Source: Chitinophagales bacterium (GTDB lineage: Bacteria; Bacteroidota; Bacteroidia; Chitinophagales; JADIYW01). Taken from it: a DNA stretch of 64,000 nucleotides. The notes under the pieces are model-generated. The model worked only from the letters and a program-made list of their open reading frames with translations. It made no database searches and was not told the DNA's origin. The translations under genes and the position numbers were made by a program. Where the stretch lies: the NCBI GenBank assembly GCA_023957215.1, contig JAMLHH010000005.1, forward strand, positions 1-64,000, read 5' to 3'. This document shows, piece by piece, positions 54,326 through 64,000 of this stretch (its first letter is position 1; every line of letters starts with the position of its first letter).

Positions 54326-54333
54326 TATATTTG
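54326..54333 (+). promoter_or_regulatory. -7 element TATATTTG of the IS630 transposase
   Basis: TATATTTG matches TAnnTTTG and lies 3 bases before the transposase ATG at 54337. A TTG at 54303-54305 is about 20 bases upstream of it, as a -33 box should be. Confidence 0.5.
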
Positions 54334-54336
54334 TGT

Positions 54337-55352
54337 ATGGAAAAACTTGATTTACGAAAACTCGACGAACAAGAAATACTTGGCATACGAAAATCTGCTA
54401 TACGCCTTATTGAATCAGGGATGTCGCAGAAGGCTGTCTGTAAAAAGTTAGGCCTGCGTCCTAATACTCTAAACGATTGGAACAAGAAATATAAGAGCAA
54501 AGGAGTAAAGGGTCTTCATTCCGGAAAGCGTGGAGCGAGGTCTGAGGACAGAAAACTACTATCCTCAAAGGTAGAACGGCAAATACAGAAGATGATTATT
54601 GATAAAATGCCTGATCAGTTAAAACTTGATTATGCTTTATGGACAAGAAAAGCAGTCAAAGAATTGGTTGAAAGAGAATTTGGGATAGTTATTTCTATCA
54701 GTGCCATGGAAGAAATTTGCTTGAGAAGTGGGGTTTACCCCTCAAAAGCCAAAGAAGCAAGCTTACGAACAATGCCCGAAGAAAGTCCAAAAATGGCTGG
54801 ATGAGCAATATCCATTATCAAAAACAAGCTAAAGAAGAAGATGCTGAAATTTCTGGGGCGATGGGACCGGAATCAAAAACCAGTGTAATCGGCAAGTATG
54901 CACCTAAGGAAACACCTGTAAAAATGTCCAAACGTTTTTCGGTAAATATGGTGTCGGCAGTCAACAATCAGGGTAAAGTCCATTTTATGATATACTCCGA
55001 CTCTATGAATACCGATAGATTGATTAATTCATAAGCACAACTCATTAAGGCAAATCGAAGAAGGTTTATTGATATTGAATCATGCTGGGTTCATCACAGT
55101 AAAATCGTCAAGGAATGGGTTGAGAGAAACAAAGAAAAGATTGCATTATACTATCTGCCTTCTTATTCTCCTGAACGGAATCCTGACGAATATCTGAACT
55201 GTGATCTGAAACAGGGAATGTCGGCAAAAAAGTCACCAAAGAACAAAGAAACGCTACAAAATAATGTACAGAACCATATGGAAATGCTATCAGTCAGTCC
55301 GCAAAGAGTTATGAAATATTTCAAACACAAAGATATTCAGTATGCGGCATAG
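54337..55352 (+). pseudogene. IS630-family transposase, several frameshifts
   Basis: The N-terminal HTH (GMSQKAVCKKLGLRPNTLNDW) and the start of the DDE domain are in the first frame, which ends at 54804. The protein goes on in a second frame (AKEEDAEIS, MSKRFSVNMVSAVNNQGK, MIYSDSMNTDRLI), which stops at 55034. A third segment (VHHSKIVKEWVERNKEKI, YYLPSYSPERNPDEYLN) runs to 55352. The first catalytic Asp (WGD) appears only in a shifted frame, and the second (LDN before VHHSK) is destroyed. The final acidic residue in NPDE is kept. Confidence 0.85.
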
Positions 55353-56041: not shown

Positions 56042-58792
56042 TTATTGTTTTAACCATTTTTTTGAAAATGAACCTTTGTTACTATTTATATGAAGAATAT
56101 ATGCACCCGATGCAATATCGTTTGGAATATTGATTGATAGTATTTGTGATGAGGTCGATAGGGTTTTATTTGACAAGGTAAACACATGAATCAATTTTCC
56201 GGATAAGTTAAAAATCTGTACATTTTTAATTTGTACCGGTGTCTGAAACTGAATTGAAATTTGGTCTTTCGCTGGATTGGGATAGAGACTCACGTTTTTA
56301 CTGTCATTATAGTGCTGTTTAATACCTAATATAGTAGCCGAATAATCCCATTTTTGAATAAAATACTTCAAATCACTTTGCCAATTTCTGGAACCTACTG
56401 TCATCAAACTTCCATCTTTCCTGTTATTGAAAAATCGAAAATTTGAAAGACGTAATAGAGTAGGGTCTGTAACTATACCATTACTTCCAAAGTTCTCATC
56501 AAGTTTCCCAAAAGCATCTAATTTAAGAAATCCCAAATAGCCATAACTGACATCAGGCATTGTATATTCAAATCCCATCAACAAACTCCCATCCTGTTGG
56601 GGTAATATTCTATCAATTTGGATAGGGTGGTCTAATATTTCTGATATGCGGTATTCACCATTGAGACCATAACTTAAATCAGGTAAGCCACCGGTAGAGA
56701 ACTTTCTGACCTTATTGATATCTCCGAAAGAAAGTACGTACAAATCCTTGTTGATTCCTCTCTTGAAATAGTTAGAAGTCTCTGCAAAACGGATATAGCC
56801 GTTAGTCCCAAAAGTATTATCTATTTCACCGTTGGGTTTGATTCTTAAAAGTGTCTTATCACTATATTGGGGTATTTTTCCTAAAAGTAAAATATATCCG
56901 TCTTCATAGGCAATCTGATCCGGTGTCAGGACTCCATTTCCGGGTAGATAGATACTTAATTTTCCATTATTTCCAAAAGATGTATTGAGTGTCCCATCGC
57001 TTAAATATTGCTCTAATAACAGTGTATTGCTATCTATTAAAGATACAATATTTAAAAACTTGTCATCTACGACTTGGTAATTTAGATAAGTTTTATTTTC
57101 ATCCAATTTTATCCATCCTTCTTGATTTGCCCAGTTTTTATCAAATGTGCCATCAGCGAGTATTTTTCTAATCACCCTTTTATAACCTGTTTCACGATTT
57201 AATACTAAAGCCAAAAAACTGAGATGATCTATTTCGCCAATTAGATTGTATTCTGCAAGTTCGCTTCTATCAGGTAAATATATTTTTCCTTTATCAGCAA
57301 AAGATGAATCTACCGTGCCACTCGGTAGATGTTTGATTATAAATCCATTGTTGTAATTGATACCGTTTTGTGTTATCCCCGAAATGATTAGAGAGCCATC
57401 AGACATGGAAATATAAGATTGGAATAAAGTCGAATTGCTCAGTGTAATATATTTCCCTACTCCTTGATTCCCAAATGTAATATCTTTTTCACCTTTTGGG
57501 GTGTATTTGAGGAGTGTCATTTCGTAACCTCTTTTATCATATTGAGAGACATGTCCCCCTAAGATAATACTGCCGTCATTTAGCGATATCGCATGATTTA
57601 CTATTTGCTCATAATCAGTTAAATCCGACAAAACCAATCCGTCTGTTCCTATGGAGTCTATCAAATGCCCATTTTTATCGTACCATCTCGTATTGATAGT
57701 ATATTGCATAAATTCATCACCTTCAATATACCCATATATAATCATATTGTCGTGACTAAATACAATACCTTTATTGGTAAGCTTATCATTTTCATCGTCC
57801 TCATGTATATAACCACCGTCACCCCATAGTGTATCTAACTGACCGTCAGAATTTAGCTTTATAACTTCATTCTCTTTAAATAAGAAAATATTTTTATTTT
57901 CATCGACATGGATAGATTGAATATCAATCTCATAGATGCCCGGTTTTACGATAGAGTCTATAAAAGCTCTGCCGTCTTTTGCAAAAGAGGAGTCTATTTC
58001 TCCATTCGGAAATCGTTTCATTAGTATGCCCGGCGAATCATTGAGATAATCCTCATTGAGAGTAACATAACTATTGCCATCTTTATCATAAGCCGCCCCC
58101 ATATCAGCTCTGTTAATATAGCCGTTGTAGGAATCCATATCCCTTAAAATTGTATAGATACCGCCTTGGTCACCAAAAGAAGTGTCTATGTTGCCGTCTT
58201 CTTTAATCTTCATCAGCATTTTAGCTCTTTTATCGATAGGTGGCCAAAATGAACTTGCTTCTGCTCCTACAATAAGTCCTATACTATTATCCTCATATAT
58301 ATACATATCTAATATACTGTTGAGAGGTATCGGTTCTTCAAAAAGAGAATTTAAAAACAGATAGCCTTTTTTGTTAAAATCAGTGTCAAGATGACCATCT
58401 TCAGTTAGACGTGCTATATAAGCACCATCGTATGATCCCCCTGCGATAAGATATCTATTGCGGGTATCAGATTTAATAATACTGCCATTATTATCCACAT
58501 TTGTAAAAGTGAGGTTTTTGTTTCCGTCTATACCGAAGGTACTGTCCACTTTTCCGTCAGAGAAATATCTACTTATAATCACCTGTGAATAGTTGGTTGT
58601 CCACCATTTAGCATTGGATGTGGTCAGTATTCTATCTTTTGTATCTATGGTGATAGATTGTATATCGGCATTGGCAATGCCCAGACCATTGATAACCAAT
58701 CCATTTTCTCCATAGGAATTATCTAATTGGGCAGATACTTTGAGTGAAAGTATCGCCATGAAAATGAATGTAATTAAAAATCTCACTCTCAT
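56042..58792 (-). CDS. Delta-60 repeat beta-propeller-like protein with type IX sorting domain
   Basis: The 916-residue protein has a signal peptide ending near KVSAQ. At least ten repeats of a ~60-residue unit follow, each with a core like DGHLDTDFNKKG, GNIDTSFGDQG or GTLNTSFGNNG; this is the delta-60 (uncharacterised delta-60 repeat) family. The last ~80 residues form a type A T9SS C-terminal domain: SLYPNPAKDQISIQF, NVQIFNLSGKLIHVF and SGAYILHI. It is probably exported by the PorT-containing type IX system and attached to the surface. Function of the propeller is unknown. Confidence 0.87.
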   Translation of the reverse strand: MRVRFLITFIFMAILSLKVSAQLDNSYGENGLVINGLGIANADIQSITIDTKDRILTTSNAKWWTTNYSQVIISRYFSDGKVDSTFGIDGNKNLTFTNVDNNGSIIKSDTRNRYLIAGGSYDGAYIARLTEDGHLDTDFNKKGYLFLNSLFEEPIPLNSILDMYIYEDNSIGLIVGAEASSFWPPIDKRAKMLMKIKEDGNIDTSFGDQGGIYTILRDMDSYNGYINRADMGAAYDKDGNSYVTLNEDYLNDSPGILMKRFPNGEIDSSFAKDGRAFIDSIVKPGIYEIDIQSIHVDENKNIFLFKENEVIKLNSDGQLDTLWGDGGYIHEDDENDKLTNKGIVFSHDNMIIYGYIEGDEFMQYTINTRWYDKNGHLIDSIGTDGLVLSDLTDYEQIVNHAISLNDGSIILGGHVSQYDKRGYEMTLLKYTPKGEKDITFGNQGVGKYITLSNSTLFQSYISMSDGSLIISGITQNGINYNNGFIIKHLPSGTVDSSFADKGKIYLPDRSELAEYNLIGEIDHLSFLALVLNRETGYKRVIRKILADGTFDKNWANQEGWIKLDENKTYLNYQVVDDKFLNIVSLIDSNTLLLEQYLSDGTLNTSFGNNGKLSIYLPGNGVLTPDQIAYEDGYILLLGKIPQYSDKTLLRIKPNGEIDNTFGTNGYIRFAETSNYFKRGINKDLYVLSFGDINKVRKFSTGGLPDLSYGLNGEYRISEILDHPIQIDRILPQQDGSLLMGFEYTMPDVSYGYLGFLKLDAFGKLDENFGSNGIVTDPTLLRLSNFRFFNNRKDGSLMTVGSRNWQSDLKYFIQKWDYSATILGIKQHYNDSKNVSLYPNPAKDQISIQFQTPVQIKNVQIFNLSGKLIHVFTLSNKTLSTSSQILSINIPNDIASGAYILHINSNKGSFSKKWLKQ

Positions 58793-58832
58793 AAGTGAAT
58801 CTTATTTATATGTAAAAATATAAAATAATTAT

Positions 58833-58859
58833 AAAAAAGGCAATTTGCAACCTCTTTTT
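58833..58859 (-). terminator. Terminator after the secreted serine protease gene
   Basis: On the minus strand an AAAAAGAGG arm and a CCTTTTTT arm enclose TTGCAAATTG, with one bulged base in the first arm. The 3' arm is T-rich. It lies between the protease stop (58875) and the next gene start (58792). Confidence 0.6.
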
Positions 58860-58874
58860 AAGGCACATAGATAC

Positions 58875-61118
58875 CTACTTAAATATTCCTATTTGATGCG
58901 TTTCTACACAATCATCATATTGTAAAACGATAAAGTATATATCACTTTTTATAAGTGGCAAATCTAATTCATACTCCGCTTGTTGTTCGTTTATATCAAA
59001 TTCGCGTGCAATATAACCGACTTTATCGACTATTTGTACTTTATTCAGTGAATAGGAATGCGTTCCCATTTCGGTCTCATTTTTAGCCTTCATCTTTAAT
59101 CTATTACTACTTGCAATAAATGATACGTCAAACAGCTCACATCCCGTAGCCAGAAGATTGTTGTTACAGGATACAGCGGTACTATAGAAGCAATAATACT
59201 GTTCTATACTTCCACACTGGTTGGATATCGTCGTTTTTAATACAACATTTTGATTGGGTGACTTAAACATTATATTGACATTGTTTGAATGTCCCGACCA
59301 GCTGCCACTCCAAAAATTATAGTTTGTAGGTATAGACCACATTTTTTGCCAAGTCACATTAGTAGCATTGTAAACCGGTTGTGCACACCATGTTTTGGTT
59401 ATACTCGGTGAATAACATTGAGAATTACACGGACTGCCGTCAAAGTCATCAGAAATAACGGCTTCTGAGTATGAGCAAGGTGTCGCTCCCCAAAGTGTGT
59501 ATGGCAAACCAACATCTATAGTTTTTGTGGCAACGTATGTAGAACAAGCAGAAACAGTTGCAGTCAATGTAACCTGACCATTAGCACTACCATTTCTTGT
59601 AACAGTACAGGTATTGCCATTAGGTGATAATGTTACAATACCATTAGGTGCAACACTCCATACAATAGTATTACCGGCAGGTACTCCATTGAGTGTGTAG
59701 GTAGAAACACCATTACAGATAGAATTAGCTCCACTAATAGACAATGGACCAATCAATGATGCAACATTTGTAGTATTTGTAGTAAGTACACCTTTGTTAT
59801 CAGAATCAAGCCAATTGCTTAATCTTGTTGAATTTGTACCTCCACCTGTCCACGAAAGGTCGAAACGACCATAAAAGTCCCATAATTGACTACCATTGCA
59901 GTATGAAGGACCTCCATGTAATTGTCCAACAATTCTATGATTTTGATCAAATAATGGTGAACCAGATGAACCGCCCTCTGTAACAGGTGTAACTGTTTGC
60001 CCTGCACCATTATTTTGAGGACTCCAATCAGCTCGCCAATGTTGATTAGTTGTACCAAATGCACTTGCTACTACTACTGGATTGTTGGCTCTACTAATTT
60101 TCATTAAATCGCCACTCGGATGATGAATAGCTGTTGCATTATTGGCAGGTGTAGTACTTCTTGACCAACCAGCGTAATTAATTCCTGAATTGGTAGGTGG
60201 CGTTTGATTTAATTCTAATAAAGCAAAGTCAGAACTTGTATTATTAGCTCTTAATTTGCAGCCATTAAACTGTATATCTTCTGTCCATCCTGAATTGGGT
60301 GTGCAAGTGCTACTCCAAAATTGAAACTGAAAAACCCAATTGACTTCATTTCCTGCTTGTAGGCAGTGATTAGCAGTCAGCAAATAGGGAATATTAGTGC
60401 CACACGTATTCATTACTAAAGCACCAGTACACCACACAGTCCCATTTGCTACAATTAATGCTACTGAGTTCTTTTCATTATTCCAGCCATTGCCTAATGG
60501 ACAATTGACATTAATTTGACAAGCACCTGAAGAACCCACTTCACCATATTTTGTTCCATATTCTTTATAACCAAAATTGACTTTTGAAATTGAGATTTTG
60601 GAAACTTCATTTTCATATAAAGGGGTTTTCAATACTATATTTAGAGTGTTTCCTTGATACACTCTAGTTGCCCATATATTATTCTCATTATTCTCTTTTG
60701 ATGTAATGCTATCTGTTAATTCTTTTTCGTTGTAAATAGCTAAAATTGCATTCTCAGATAAGTAAAAATTTCCAAATTCTAATGATATATTTAAAGCATC
60801 TTTTGCAACTACTTTTAAAATATATACTTTATAGTTTTCATCTTCAAATTTTTCAGCTTGCTCTATCAAATTTATATTGTTTGCTAATGACACCGCAAAT
60901 CTATTATCATTATCGTCTTTCTCTTTACTTCTCAAACTTTTAAATTCTTTAGGAGCATCTAAAATTATTTCCTTTGAAATTGTTCTTAAAGTTGGAAATA
61001 GGTTTTCAGGAATATTAGTTTGGTAAACTCTTGTTTTTACTTGTGCTTTTATGTTCAACGATAAAAGCATAAAAATTAAAACAGAAATAATCTGTACGTT
61101 AAGCAGTAATTTTTTCAT
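58875..61118 (-). CDS. Secreted trypsin-like (S1/lysyl-endopeptidase-like) serine protease
   Basis: The 747-residue protein has a signal peptide ending near NIKAQ and a prodomain of ~200 residues. The protease domain has ACQINVNCP, the His in LLTANHCL, Asp in SSDFALLEL, and Ser in TEGGSSGSPLFD, followed by HGGPSYC. This layout fits achromobacter-protease-like lysyl endopeptidases. An immunoglobulin/PKD-like region (residues about 455-545) and a second beta domain follow. The C-terminus (VQIVDKVGYIAREFD, DIYFIVLQYDD) looks like a T9SS sorting domain without the NP motif. It is probably exported. Confidence 0.85.
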   Translation of the reverse strand: MKKLLLNVQIISVLIFMLLSLNIKAQVKTRVYQTNIPENLFPTLRTISKEIILDAPKEFKSLRSKEKDDNDNRFAVSLANNINLIEQAEKFEDENYKVYILKVVAKDALNISLEFGNFYLSENAILAIYNEKELTDSITSKENNENNIWATRVYQGNTLNIVLKTPLYENEVSKISISKVNFGYKEYGTKYGEVGSSGACQINVNCPLGNGWNNEKNSVALIVANGTVWCTGALVMNTCGTNIPYLLTANHCLQAGNEVNWVFQFQFWSSTCTPNSGWTEDIQFNGCKLRANNTSSDFALLELNQTPPTNSGINYAGWSRSTTPANNATAIHHPSGDLMKISRANNPVVVASAFGTTNQHWRADWSPQNNGAGQTVTPVTEGGSSGSPLFDQNHRIVGQLHGGPSYCNGSQLWDFYGRFDLSWTGGGTNSTRLSNWLDSDNKGVLTTNTTNVASLIGPLSISGANSICNGVSTYTLNGVPAGNTIVWSVAPNGIVTLSPNGNTCTVTRNGSANGQVTLTATVSACSTYVATKTIDVGLPYTLWGATPCSYSEAVISDDFDGSPCNSQCYSPSITKTWCAQPVYNATNVTWQKMWSIPTNYNFWSGSWSGHSNNVNIMFKSPNQNVVLKTTISNQCGSIEQYYCFYSTAVSCNNNLLATGCELFDVSFIASSNRLKMKAKNETEMGTHSYSLNKVQIVDKVGYIAREFDINEQQAEYELDLPLIKSDIYFIVLQYDDCVETHQIGIFK

Positions 61119-61123
61119 AAGTT

Positions 61124-61957
61124 TTATTTTTTAGTAAATGAATAATTATATACCATACCTATTGATAAGCCTCTGAAACATTTTCTTCTTTTCGCATCAT
61201 TTGTTTCTGATGGAAAAACAGCATCTGTTTTCCATACATCAAAAGCAGGTACTTGTATTGATAAGCCTATTTGCGATGATTTTATTTGCTTTGTAACTTC
61301 TAATGACATGAGTAAAGATGTTCCAAAATACCGTTTATTTTTTGTTCTATACTTTTGAGACTTGTCTGGTTCTGGATTATAAGTAAGATGATAATATTGT
61401 GAAAGCATAAAATAATTATTTGCATATAATGCTGTTTCTATTTGAAAATTCTTCTTTAATTGAAATATTTTTCCAATACCTATGTTTATATTTAGTGTAT
61501 TGTACCAATATTTGTCTGTAATAAATTGAACTTTATAAAGCGATGGATAGTCTATCTCTCTTGCTTTTGCTTCTCCAAACTGTGTGTTTAACTTATTTAA
61601 TTTAGTAAAAGAATGTCTATAATAACCCAATCCAGTAATTAAAGATATTTTATCGAATAATGTAATTTTATAATTTACAGTAGTTCCCCAACTTATGCCT
61701 TTCATCTTTAAATAATCAGTGCTTGGTCGTCCATTTATATTATAGGTAATTTCAGGATACCAATCAAATCTTGTGTAGGTATGTAGTTCTATTGAATGTT
61801 TAAGATTTTTGCTAATATTTATTTCAGAACTATCTAACTGAAATCGATTGTTTTTGTTATATAAATTGCTTTCATCTTCTAAATTAAAGCGAGCATTACA
61901 ATTATAAGCTGAAAGAAATAGTATAAAAAGCAATAAGTTAATATTTTTATATTTCAT
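61124..61957 (-). CDS. Putative outer-membrane beta-barrel protein
   Basis: The 277-residue protein has a hydrophobic start (INLLLFILFLSAYNCNA) that may be a signal peptide or a lipobox. The body has alternating beta strands, including SWGTTVNYKITLF, SLITGLGYYRHSF and the final LSIGMVYNYSFTKK, which ends with an aromatic-rich strand like an outer-membrane barrel. It is not assigned to a family. It starts a run of minus-strand secreted proteins and is followed 5 bases later by the protease gene, so the two may be cotranscribed. Confidence 0.65.
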   Translation of the reverse strand: MKYKNINLLLFILFLSAYNCNARFNLEDESNLYNKNNRFQLDSSEINISKNLKHSIELHTYTRFDWYPEITYNINGRPSTDYLKMKGISWGTTVNYKITLFDKISLITGLGYYRHSFTKLNKLNTQFGEAKAREIDYPSLYKVQFITDKYWYNTLNINIGIGKIFQLKKNFQIETALYANNYFMLSQYYHLTYNPEPDKSQKYRTKNKRYFGTSLLMSLEVTKQIKSSQIGLSIQVPAFDVWKTDAVFPSETNDAKRRKCFRGLSIGMVYNYSFTKK

Positions 61958-62038: not shown

Positions 62039-62392
62039 TTACTCTGTTATCTCAAATATTATTTTTAGATCAGGAGGAATAATTGAAGTATTACAAATAA
62101 GATTTGCACGATTAATAGTATCTTCCGTTATCTTAAAATTTAACTTCATGCCCTCTATCCTATATTGGTCAGGCAAACTCATGGTAACAAAAGAATCCAA
62201 AGTATAATCTTCTACTCTCATCAGATAAGGTGGTGTATTTAACCCGGTACTTACACATTCACTATAATATCGTACTACTTCTCCGTTGTAAACCTTGTTT
62301 GGGTCTATAACCTCTTCATATTTTTTCTTTTTACAAGATGTATTATATACCGATGCGCATATAATAATCAATAATAGAATCTTGGTTTTCAT
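62039..62392 (-). CDS. Small lipoprotein of unknown function (array member)
   Basis: The 117-residue protein has a signal peptide with a lipobox (YNTSC) followed by a lysine run, KKKKYEE. Its signal peptide is nearly identical to that of 62949-63368 (KILLLIIICASVYNTSCKK), but the mature part is unrelated. The 5' region shares an element with that gene. It is the last of three tandem minus-strand genes. No function is known. Confidence 0.65.
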   Translation of the reverse strand: MKTKILLLIIICASVYNTSCKKKKYEEVIDPNKVYNGEVVRYYSECVSTGLNTPPYLMRVEDYTLDSFVTMSLPDQYRIEGMKLNFKITEDTINRANLICNTSIIPPDLKIIFEITE

Positions 62393-62505
62393 GGTATCAA
62401 TTTTAAGTTTTAAAACGCAGATTAAGTAATTAATATTTTAAATTTAATAAGAAAAAATAATATTAACATCCAATAAGAAAAATAATTATAAAAAAGGCAA
62501 CAGAA
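62393..62505 (-). repeat. Upstream element of the small lipoprotein genes (copy A)
   Basis: It matches 63369-63451 over TATCAATTTTAAGTTTTAAA, ACGCAGATTAAGTAATT and the AATAATTATAAAAAAGGCAAC end, with an extra ~27-bp segment in copy A. It lies directly before the ATG of 62039-62392 (minus strand), so it likely contains the promoter. Confidence 0.7.
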
Positions 62506-62539
62506 AAAAGATGATAAGGATTAAACTTTTATTTTTCAT
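62486..62539 (-). pseudogene. Truncated third copy of the small lipoprotein (signal peptide only)
   Basis: After the stop of 62536-62952 an ATG at 62539 opens an 18-codon frame. Its hydrophobic sequence MKNKSLILIIFFLLP resembles the signal peptide of 62536-62952 (MKNISLIMLVIACIF), then a stop follows. The rest of the copy has been lost and replaced by the repeated upstream element of the next gene. Confidence 0.45.
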
Positions 62540-62952
62540 TGTACTTCTATTTTGGTTAATAAAATATTTTCATAGGTATAATCTGCTGGTGCAAATACTT
62601 TGTCACAAATTGGTTTTAAATGTCCTGCAAATTTTACAGAAAATAATTGAGAGGTATCATTTTTTATGTTTAATATCTGCTGAGGCAATATAGATTCATT
62701 ACAAATAATCATATAATGATTACAGTTAGAACAATTTTGTTCATTATATTTAATAAAAAATTTATTCTGAAATAAGTATCCATTTGCAATCTGTTGTACT
62801 GAGTAATATACTTTGCCTACTAATGCTTGAGTATCCTCAATAGTAACTCTCGTTGGTGCATTGCATCCACAGTCAGCATTATGCTTTTCTTTCTTGCAGG
62901 AAATTGTAAAAATACAGGCAATAACCAGCATAATTAAAGATATATTTTTCAT
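62536..62952 (-). CDS. Small lipoprotein of unknown function (array member)
   Basis: The 138-residue protein has a signal peptide with lipobox TISC, then KKEKHNADCGCNAPTRVTI. The body has CSNCNHYMIICNESILPQQ and AGHLKPICDKVFAPADYTYE. The cysteines in DCGC and CSNC could form disulfides. The last 92 bases are identical to the end of 62949-63368, and the DCGCNAPTRV segment is also shared, while the middle differs. The ATG overlaps the upstream stop by 4 bases (ATGA). Confidence 0.7.
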   Translation of the reverse strand: MKNISLIMLVIACIFTISCKKEKHNADCGCNAPTRVTIEDTQALVGKVYYSVQQIANGYLFQNKFFIKYNEQNCSNCNHYMIICNESILPQQILNIKNDTSQLFSVKFAGHLKPICDKVFAPADYTYENILLTKIEVQ

Positions 62953-63368
62953 TGTACTTCTATTTTGGTTAATAAAATATTTTCATAGGTATAATCTGCT
63001 GGTGCAAATACTTTGTCACAAATTGGTTTTAAATGCCCTGCAAGCTTTACAGTAAGTGATTGATTAATATCGTTTTTTAAGTTTAATACCTGTTGAGGTA
63101 AGATGCTATTGTTACATACAACCATTATGTGAACACAATTACCACAATCCGGCTCGGTATATCCAATTAGGTATTTATTTTTATACGAGTTATATCCTTG
63201 AAAAGCCATTGTGTTATATTGTATAGTGCCAATCAGACTTGTAGAGTCTGGAATAGTAACTCTCGTTGGTGCATTGCATCCACAGTCAGCATTATGCTTT
63301 TCTTTCTTGCAAGATGTATTATATACCGATACGCATATAATAATAATTAATAAAATCTTGGCTTTCAT
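62949..63368 (-). CDS. Small lipoprotein of unknown function (array member)
   Basis: The 139-residue paralogue of 62536-62952 has lipobox NTSC, KKEKHNADCGCNAPTRVTI, PDCGNCVHIMVVCNNSILPQQ, and AGHLKPICDKVFAPADYTYENI at the end. The start is preceded by copy B of the upstream element. It is the first gene of the array. Function unknown. Confidence 0.7.
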   Translation of the reverse strand: MKAKILLIIIICVSVYNTSCKKEKHNADCGCNAPTRVTIPDSTSLIGTIQYNTMAFQGYNSYKNKYLIGYTEPDCGNCVHIMVVCNNSILPQQVLNLKNDINQSLTVKLAGHLKPICDKVFAPADYTYENILLTKIEVQ

Positions 63369-63451
63369 GATATCAATTTTAAGTTTTAAAACGCAGATTA
63401 AGTAATTGATATTTTAAATTTAATAAGAAAAATAATTATAAAAAAGGCAAC
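63369..63451 (-). repeat. Upstream element of the small lipoprotein genes (copy B)
   Basis: It is the counterpart of 62393-62505 without the ~27-bp insertion. It begins at the ATG of 62949-63368 (minus strand) and ends with the sequence AAAAAAGGCAAC. Confidence 0.7.
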
Positions 63452-63701: not shown

Positions 63702-64000
63702 GTGAAGAATTATAAGACGTTATTATTCAATCTTGTTGCGATGGTCATAGCGACCATTCTTTTATTGGTGGTATTAAATCTTTCATTTCGTTTCCTCACA
63801 AATCATCATCAAGAATATGAAGTCCCGGATGTCGTAGGTCTTAATTTGAAGGAAGCCGCTAATTTATTACAGAATAATAAGATGCGCTACTATATAGTGG
63901 ATTCTGTCTATGAAACCCAATATAAACCTTATGAGGTGGTCAGTCAAAGTCCCAAAAGCGGAAGTTTTGTCAAGGCTAACAGAAAAATCTATGTCACGAT
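63702..64000 (+). CDS. PASTA-domain membrane protein (N-terminal part, cut by window edge)
   Basis: The frame opens with GTG at 63702 and runs off the window after 99 codons. A basic start (KNYKTLL) precedes one membrane helix (MVIATILLLVVLNLSF), which is a single anchor. Then comes a PASTA domain, EVPDVVGLNLKEAANLL, QYKPYEVVSQSPKSGSFVKANRKIYVT. PASTA domains bind peptidoglycan or uncrosslinked muropeptides; in Bacteroidota they often stand as short membrane proteins. The start is not ATG. Confidence 0.8.
   Translation, partial: MKNYKTLLFNLVAMVIATILLLVVLNLSFRFLTNHHQEYEVPDVVGLNLKEAANLLQNNKMRYYIVDSVYETQYKPYEVVSQSPKSGSFVKANRKIYVT

Follow-up and report, generated by a model that had tools for sequence, protein, structure and literature searches.

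Candidate potempin-like lipoproteins encoded by a mosaic tandem gene pair in a Chitinophagales bacterium

Genes and repeats at the locus

The window, that is, the whole stretch of 64,000 bases that was analyzed, corresponds to bases 1-64000 of a 122,670-base contig, and the genome comprises 2.88 Mb in 70 contigs. The minus strand carries all genes that belong to our finding, and the features below are given on that strand unless stated otherwise. Gene A (62949..63368) is an ORF of 420 bp encoding a lipoprotein of 139 aa with the lipobox NTSC, and gene B (62536..62952) is an ORF of 417 bp encoding a lipoprotein of 138 aa with the lipobox TISC. Both lipoboxes were recognized by eye, and alignment of the two proteins indicated that B is a paralogue of A. 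The stop codon of A overlaps the start codon of B in the sequence ATGA. Downstream of B, the order is a 17-codon ORF, MKNKSLILIIFFLLPFL (62486..62539), then a 22-nt element, and then gene C (62039..62392), an ORF of 354 bp encoding a lipoprotein of 117 aa that belongs to a separate small family.

Between C and the protease gene lies an ORF for a 277-aa protein (61124..61957), whose start looks like a signal peptide by eye and which is possibly an outer-membrane barrel; it had no family match. The gene of a 747-aa S1 protease (58875..61118) begins 5 bp later and contains a Trypsin_2 domain (Pfam, E 9.1e-11). It is followed by the gene of a 916-aa delta-60-repeat protein (56042..58792), which has a T9SS type A sorting domain according to Pfam/NCBIfam. 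In the Pfam/NCBIfam search, A, B, and C had no family at or above the cut-off, and the DNA of the array had no match among plasmids. Near the far end of this T9SS/lipoprotein region, at 54331-55350 of the plus strand, there is the remnant of a broken transposase, assigned to an IS630-like family by eye. The helix-turn-helix is in one part of it, and a second, separate part matches DDE_3 weakly.

Mosaic structure of A and B

The mature parts of A and B were aligned without a gap at a spacing of 413 nt. From the lipobox Cys onward, A (63252..63311) and B (62839..62898) are identical over a block of 60 nt, which codes for CKKEKHNADCGCNAPTRVTI. At the 3' ends, an earlier note on this DNA had reported 92 identical bases, and 62531-62622 and 62944-63035 indeed agree at every base; the identity in fact spans 93 nt, with one copy at the end of B (62530..62622) and the other at the end of A (62943..63035), where it reaches into the first 10 nt of B. 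Each copy of this repeat joins unique sequence on either side, and an artefact of short-read assembly may be possible for repeats this long. The longest run of identical codons between A and B was 29 of 121, the stop codon being counted, and none of 100,000 shuffles reached that length.

The middles of the two paralogues were found to be diverged, as the earlier note had said. That is, only 28 of 67 residues (42%) are identical in the middle, while the values are 20/20 at the N-terminal end and 32/33 at the C-terminal end. When the middle was compared with that of the homologues in genome G280 and at locus L042, A shared 34/64 residues with each of them, and B shared 31/64 and 32/64, respectively (48-53%). 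The ends of A or B shared 10-11 of 19-20 residues (N) and 22-26 of 33 residues (C) with the same homologues. The difference between the A-B value and the homologue values in the middle is small by itself, but the contrast between the middle and the ends is large.

Synonymous differences were counted at codons of which the amino acid is identical. The ends have them at 2 of 52 such codons and the middle at 12 of 29 (Fisher p=4e-5). The dS values were 0 in the N block, about 2.4 (saturated) in the middle, and 0.10 in the C block. The synonymous skew and the contrast in dS indicate that selection at the protein level alone is insufficient to explain the identical ends. Thus, the middle and the ends seem to have different histories, which points to recombination, and the reading as gene conversion in the earlier note agrees with these values. 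Gene conversion or unequal exchange between A and B is well supported by the sequence comparison, and an old tandem duplication of which both ends were recently homogenized fits best. Since the 3' block reaches beyond A to the first bases of B, copying of the A/B junction to the end of B would be the more natural direction. Positive selection on the middle was also considered and is unsupported, as dN was 0.53, lower than the saturated dS of 2.4. The tandem pairs of two relatives described below, G372 and G932, showed no evident conversion blocks in codon alignments inspected by eye (dS about 1 overall).

A third copy consisting only of a signal peptide had also been proposed. The 17-codon ORF does exist, and it begins with the last 10 nt of the 93-nt repeat (ATGAAAAATA), its start thus lying within copied sequence; its stop is inside the element upstream of C. 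Its likeness to the start of B amounts to 27 of 60 nt, mostly in MKN.SLI. This part of the proposal is therefore less firm, and the ORF can be called a probable but weakly supported remnant.

Gene C and the shared upstream cassette

The upstream region and signal peptide of A (63298..63442) and those of C (62322..62466) are 90% identical over 145 nt, and the signal peptide of B differs from them. Similarity of the mature part of C to A and B was undetectable when the profiles of both families were compared (hhalign E 0.15 and 0.32). These results bear out the earlier description of a third gene with the signal peptide and upstream element of A and an unrelated mature part, and they also support the sharing of a cassette, here a promoter/signal-peptide unit common to A and C. 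In the C orthologues of two relatives, G006 and G010, the signal peptide ends in SVFSNACKKK, near the SVYNTSCKKK of C. This resemblance makes C the probable source of the signal peptide of A.

A 22-nt element, TTGCCTTTTTTATAATTATTTT, which is a putative promoter or operator, is located before A (63429..63450) and before C (62479..62500). The earlier note had recommended a search for other genes with this upstream element, and a motif search yielded a third copy (58822..58843) before the gene of the 916-aa T9SS protein. With up to 3 mismatches allowed, there were no copies besides these three in the 70-contig assembly. The element was also absent upstream of the lipoprotein genes of eight relatives, where the best candidates had 5-8 mismatches of 19. 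We suspect that the element may co-regulate three units headed by A, C, and the 916-aa protein.

Predicted fold of A and its relationship to potempins

Potempins consist of a single OB-fold domain, which agrees with the solved potempin structures that were matched in our searches. An AlphaFold2 model of mature A, built from four sequences, had a pLDDT of 66 and a pTM of 0.61. After a strand of 3 residues, the model shows the order E-E-E-H-E-E, which is the order expected of an OB fold.

The model of A was compared with 350,542 PDB chains by Foldseek. Ranks 1-4 were occupied by four chains of potempin A (PDB 8b2m, 8b2n, 8b2q; probability 1.00, E 2.8e-3 to 8.3e-3), and potempin D (8ehb) appeared at rank 50 (E 0.5). 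The TM score against potempin A was 0.45-0.48 by query length with an rmsd of 5.7-8.3, and no match reached E 0.001. VIA-align, used as a second look at the Foldseek candidates, placed potempin D (Z 6.4, rmsd 3.9, 85 aligned residues) and potempin A (Z 5.8, rmsd 3.9, 81 aligned) at the top, with superantigen-like proteins (Z 5.7 and 5.5) within 1 Z of the potempins. The identity between A and potempin A in the fold alignment was about 20%.

A profile of eight A-family sequences was then compared with 177,635 PDB sequences, and three potempin A constructs were the only matches at E<=10. The match is weak (E 0.026-0.039, best domain i-E 0.063), and HMMER does not mark it as significant. In two of the three constructs it starts from profile position 12, and it is therefore independent of the lipobox. 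A profile of only two A sequences matched no PDB sequence, and the eight members of the A family had scattered weak Pfam matches, the best at E 0.0025.

OB folds are common. The results on fold, profile, and gene order are each modest, but they are mutually consistent, and the gene order had pointed to potempins before the structure search. Taken together, the OB fold of A and B and their relationship to potempins are supported by prediction. C is not proposed here to be a potempin: its predicted structure had a pLDDT of 35, the profile of its family had no potempin match, and no homology emerged when the A-family and C-family profiles were compared.

Relatives of the lipoproteins and their gene neighbors

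The A/B family was found in 2 of 396 genomes of the order and in 1 of 188 genomes of the class, the window genome being included in the former and the only member in the latter. It was also found in 3 of 394 genomes of the family of G280, which is of the same order as the window genome; one of the three, G988, is a weak case with four in-frame stops. A search with a three-sequence alignment found two loci in a wider genome collection, and a search of the collection with lipobox-adjacent peptides found none. These counts are lower bounds, because G372 surfaced only in a search based on the protease. A single-protein search of 60 relatives gave only one weak match to A outside the window, in G004, which we rejected because it looks like similarity of signal peptides.

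Among the A-type relatives examined, an S8 domain is encoded directly downstream in three of four, and tandem pairs are present in two of four. At L042, the gene of an A-type lipoprotein overlaps (ATGA) the ORF of an S8 subtilase, which is cut off by the end of the contig. G932 has two tandem lipoprotein genes (motif CGCDS) and then an 816-aa S8 subtilase, with gaps of 1 bp. G372 has two tandem lipoprotein genes (CGC.TDSVW) 117 bp apart and, after 3 bp, a 799-aa S8 subtilase, and having been found by searching with the protease it is a biased case for the pairing of lipoprotein and protease. In the fourth relative, G280, the lipoprotein gene is intact and overlaps (ATGA) a retained 100-aa stub of a subtilase N-terminus (locus L040, 7183-7485). 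The stub and the beginning of the L042 subtilase are 56% identical.

As a control, we examined 30 subtilase loci in the family of G280, one of which (L067) had only about 200 nt upstream. A small lipoprotein with a lipobox recognized by eye was encoded directly upstream in three of them, G372, G932, and G897, the lipoprotein of G897 being of another type. Thus, the pairing with a lipoprotein is confined to some subtilases.

Members of the C family were seen in 6 of 298 genomes from the order, the window genome included, and the C profile had weak matches in five genomes of other families. The member in G006 is encoded directly upstream of an S8 subtilase, and that in G007 directly upstream of an S8 subtilase split by a frame break. 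There was no adjoining protease at the C relatives of G010, G206, and G294; the copy in G294 is degenerate, and a membrane-like protein is encoded downstream of that in G206. The 277-aa protein of the window had no similarity to the membrane-like proteins of G206 in a phmmer comparison.

The protease and its C-terminal module

Over residues 459-747, the window protease shows 59% identity with the C-terminal part of the G006 S8 subtilase; over residues 204-537, it shows 41% identity with an S1 protease from G002, a genome of the same genus. The C-terminal module also occurs on an M43 protease of G005 (35%). That is, proteases of the S1 (window), S8 (G006), and M43 (G005) types have a C-terminal module in common at 35-59% identity; the S8 enzymes from G932, G372, and G897 match it less well (21-27%). 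A T9SS sorting domain was above the Pfam cut-off in the proteases of G007, G002, G932, G372, G897, and G005 and below it in that of G006. The Pfam matches of the window protease included no such domain, and the alignment suggests that it may possess one. The M43 metalloprotease of G005 lies in locus L030 (4968-9285) with a neighbor in which no protease domain was recognized, and the C-terminal regions of the two are 51% identical.

A and B in the window are not directly upstream of a protease gene, since the remnant, C, and the 277-aa ORF lie between, and the protease is of the S1 and not the S8 type. A five-sequence model of the S8 domain, which recovered the G007 subtilase as a positive control, gave no match in the window or in the contig sequence as far as 79 kb.

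Interpretation of the locus

From these results we think it probable that A and B are potempin-like inhibitor lipoproteins encoded by a tandem and mosaic gene pair. As small lipoproteins of the OB fold attached to the outer membrane, A and B would most likely act as inhibitors that bind a secreted serine protease and so shield the producer cell while the enzyme passes or stays at its surface. A and B probably arose by an old tandem duplication. More recently, recombination made the two genes identical at their 3' ends and where the mature part begins, and the middle, to which strands 1-3 with their loops and the helix of the model belong, retained its divergence. A probably took over the promoter region and signal peptide of C, or shares them through exchange, the junction lying close to the lipobox Cys. 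C would head a second unit leading through the possible membrane protein to the S1 protease with its swappable C-terminal module, and it may act on the S1 protease in a similar way.

The earlier note had compared the array with variable surface proteins, in which case A, B, the remnant, and C would exchange segments to change surface antigens. Such a reading was plausible, given the real mosaic exchange and the upstream/signal-peptide cassette common to A and C. The earlier note had regarded an array fixed and identical in all relatives as an argument against it, and such an array was not found: neither same-genus genome has a match to A, and where the array would be expected, ahead of the syntenic counterpart of the gene at 63702 onward, both carry a gene that looks by eye like a cytochrome P450. 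The locus is thus accessory. Its absence in the two genomes fits an accessory island but does not show antigenic variation. Moreover, the draft genome assembly contains just two homologous full copies, and silent donor copies were not found in it, array DNA and protein A matching only the array and the upstream element at 58805-58861. The constant parts of A and B are the ends and both ORFs are intact, so that there is no visible silent archive. By eye, no recombinase was recognized at the array or among the ORFs of 59-64 kb. A short-repeat tract of the switching type was not present near the start codons apart from an AT-rich stretch (62445-62495) that is an imperfect repeat with 58% matches, and the array contains only weak AT-rich inverted or tandem repeats. 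Since, in addition, the genes of the relatives adjoin those of secreted proteases and both the structure and the profile searches led to potempins, we consider the variable-surface reading unsupported and very improbable, and we have corrected it.

The adjoining proteases could also mean that A, B, and C help a protease to fold or to dock at the outer membrane before its release, without inhibiting it. The start/stop overlaps or gaps of 1-3 bp to the protease genes of relatives would suit such chaperones or secretion partners, as would the lipobox and the possible outer-membrane protein encoded after C here and in G206, although these two proteins are not detectably similar. However, the nearest matches in fold and sequence are inhibitors, and the S8 domain of the partners begins near residue 220-245, which leaves space for an ordinary propeptide. 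A and B also persist here without a nearby S8 partner, and we regard this role as unlikely, though next in line after inhibition. That no S8 partner was found within the window or the contig to 79 kb would be expected if A and B were immunity lipoproteins against the secreted proteases of rivals, the array being an orphan like spare immunity genes. The tandem copies with diverged middles are also in line with this, and the available part of PMC13340143 reports a potempin A-like immunity protein against a T6SS metalloprotease-like effector in Stenotrophomonas. In the relatives, however, the lipoprotein genes form an apparent single transcription unit with the gene of the cell's own protease, and immunity therefore seems to us quite unlikely.

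Comparison with known inhibitor systems

The inhibitor reading can be compared with the KLIKK proteases of Tannerella forsythia. According to the accessible part of PMC4404884, six KLIKK proteases with a common C-terminal domain are all encoded after genes of small lipoproteins, which are 360-550 bp long and of which the products have no significant mutual similarity. The lipoproteins were later named potempins, and their inhibition of the co-expressed protease was stated, in the part of PMC7296668 available, as data then unpublished. A and B resemble potempins in being small lipoproteins whose genes of 420 and 417 bp are within this range, and A also does so in its predicted OB-fold order. 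The gene of C, with 354 bp, is just below the range. A further likeness is the lipoprotein gene directly upstream of the protease gene in L042, G932, and G372 (A family) and in G006 and G007 (C family); in the window, unlike in the potempin system, A and B are not so placed. Proteases of different catalytic types with a common C-terminal module are also found in both systems. In contrast to the near-identical KLIKK domain, however, the module described here is only 35-59% identical, and the window protease lacks a terminal KLIKK. The present genes also differ from potempins in belonging to another branch of Bacteroidota and in being tandem mosaic paralogues, whereas each KLIKK protease has one lipoprotein ORF.

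The Bfi proteins of Bacteroides fragilis, predicted staphostatin-like inhibitors of C10 proteases, are likewise small (116-138 aa) and exported or lipid-anchored, and their genes lie within 35 bp of the protease gene and are co-transcribed, as described in the available part of PMC2873492. Their targets, unlike those considered here, are C10 cysteine proteases, and the staphostatins used for comparison in that part of PMC2873492 are lipocalin-like and not of the OB fold; recombination between Bfi copies is not mentioned there. The model of A also matched a NigD-like lipoprotein of Bacteroides (PDB 4pqx; Z 4.7, rmsd 3.9, 74 aligned), but that chain is longer (199 residues) and the match is weaker than those to potempins.

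Potempins have been described from an oral pathogen, and A and B are candidate potempin-like lipoproteins in another branch of Bacteroidota. Literature naming potempins concerned Tannerella or periodontitis as well as the Stenotrophomonas immunity protein, as far as the available parts of PMC13340143, PMC13290721, and PMC10909966 extend, and potempin relatives outside Tannerella may already have been described. We found no literature on Chitinophaga with a lipoprotein, a subtilase, and an inhibitor. If our interpretation is true, it would suggest that control of secreted proteases by lipoproteins is a wider strategy in the phylum, and the locus would show how the specificity of inhibitors could evolve alongside swaps of protease domains. 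We speculate that gene conversion holds the ends of the inhibitors constant, that the middles diverge toward different proteases, that cassettes move between inhibitor families, and that the repertoires follow swaps of S1, S8, and M43 domains on a common C-terminal secretion module. This larger scheme is a long shot, to which we give some credit but not much.

Lipoproteins of other types were also observed in the course of this analysis. Locus L024 (6383-7459), which lies outside the window, encodes a 358-aa lipoprotein that had no Pfam match at E 0.01 and resembles a PI-PLC-type enzyme by eye. At locus L028 (5468-8290), the homologue of the window protease in G002 contains an in-frame stop, and a META-domain lipoprotein is encoded directly upstream; this is a pairing of another lipoprotein type with a protease.
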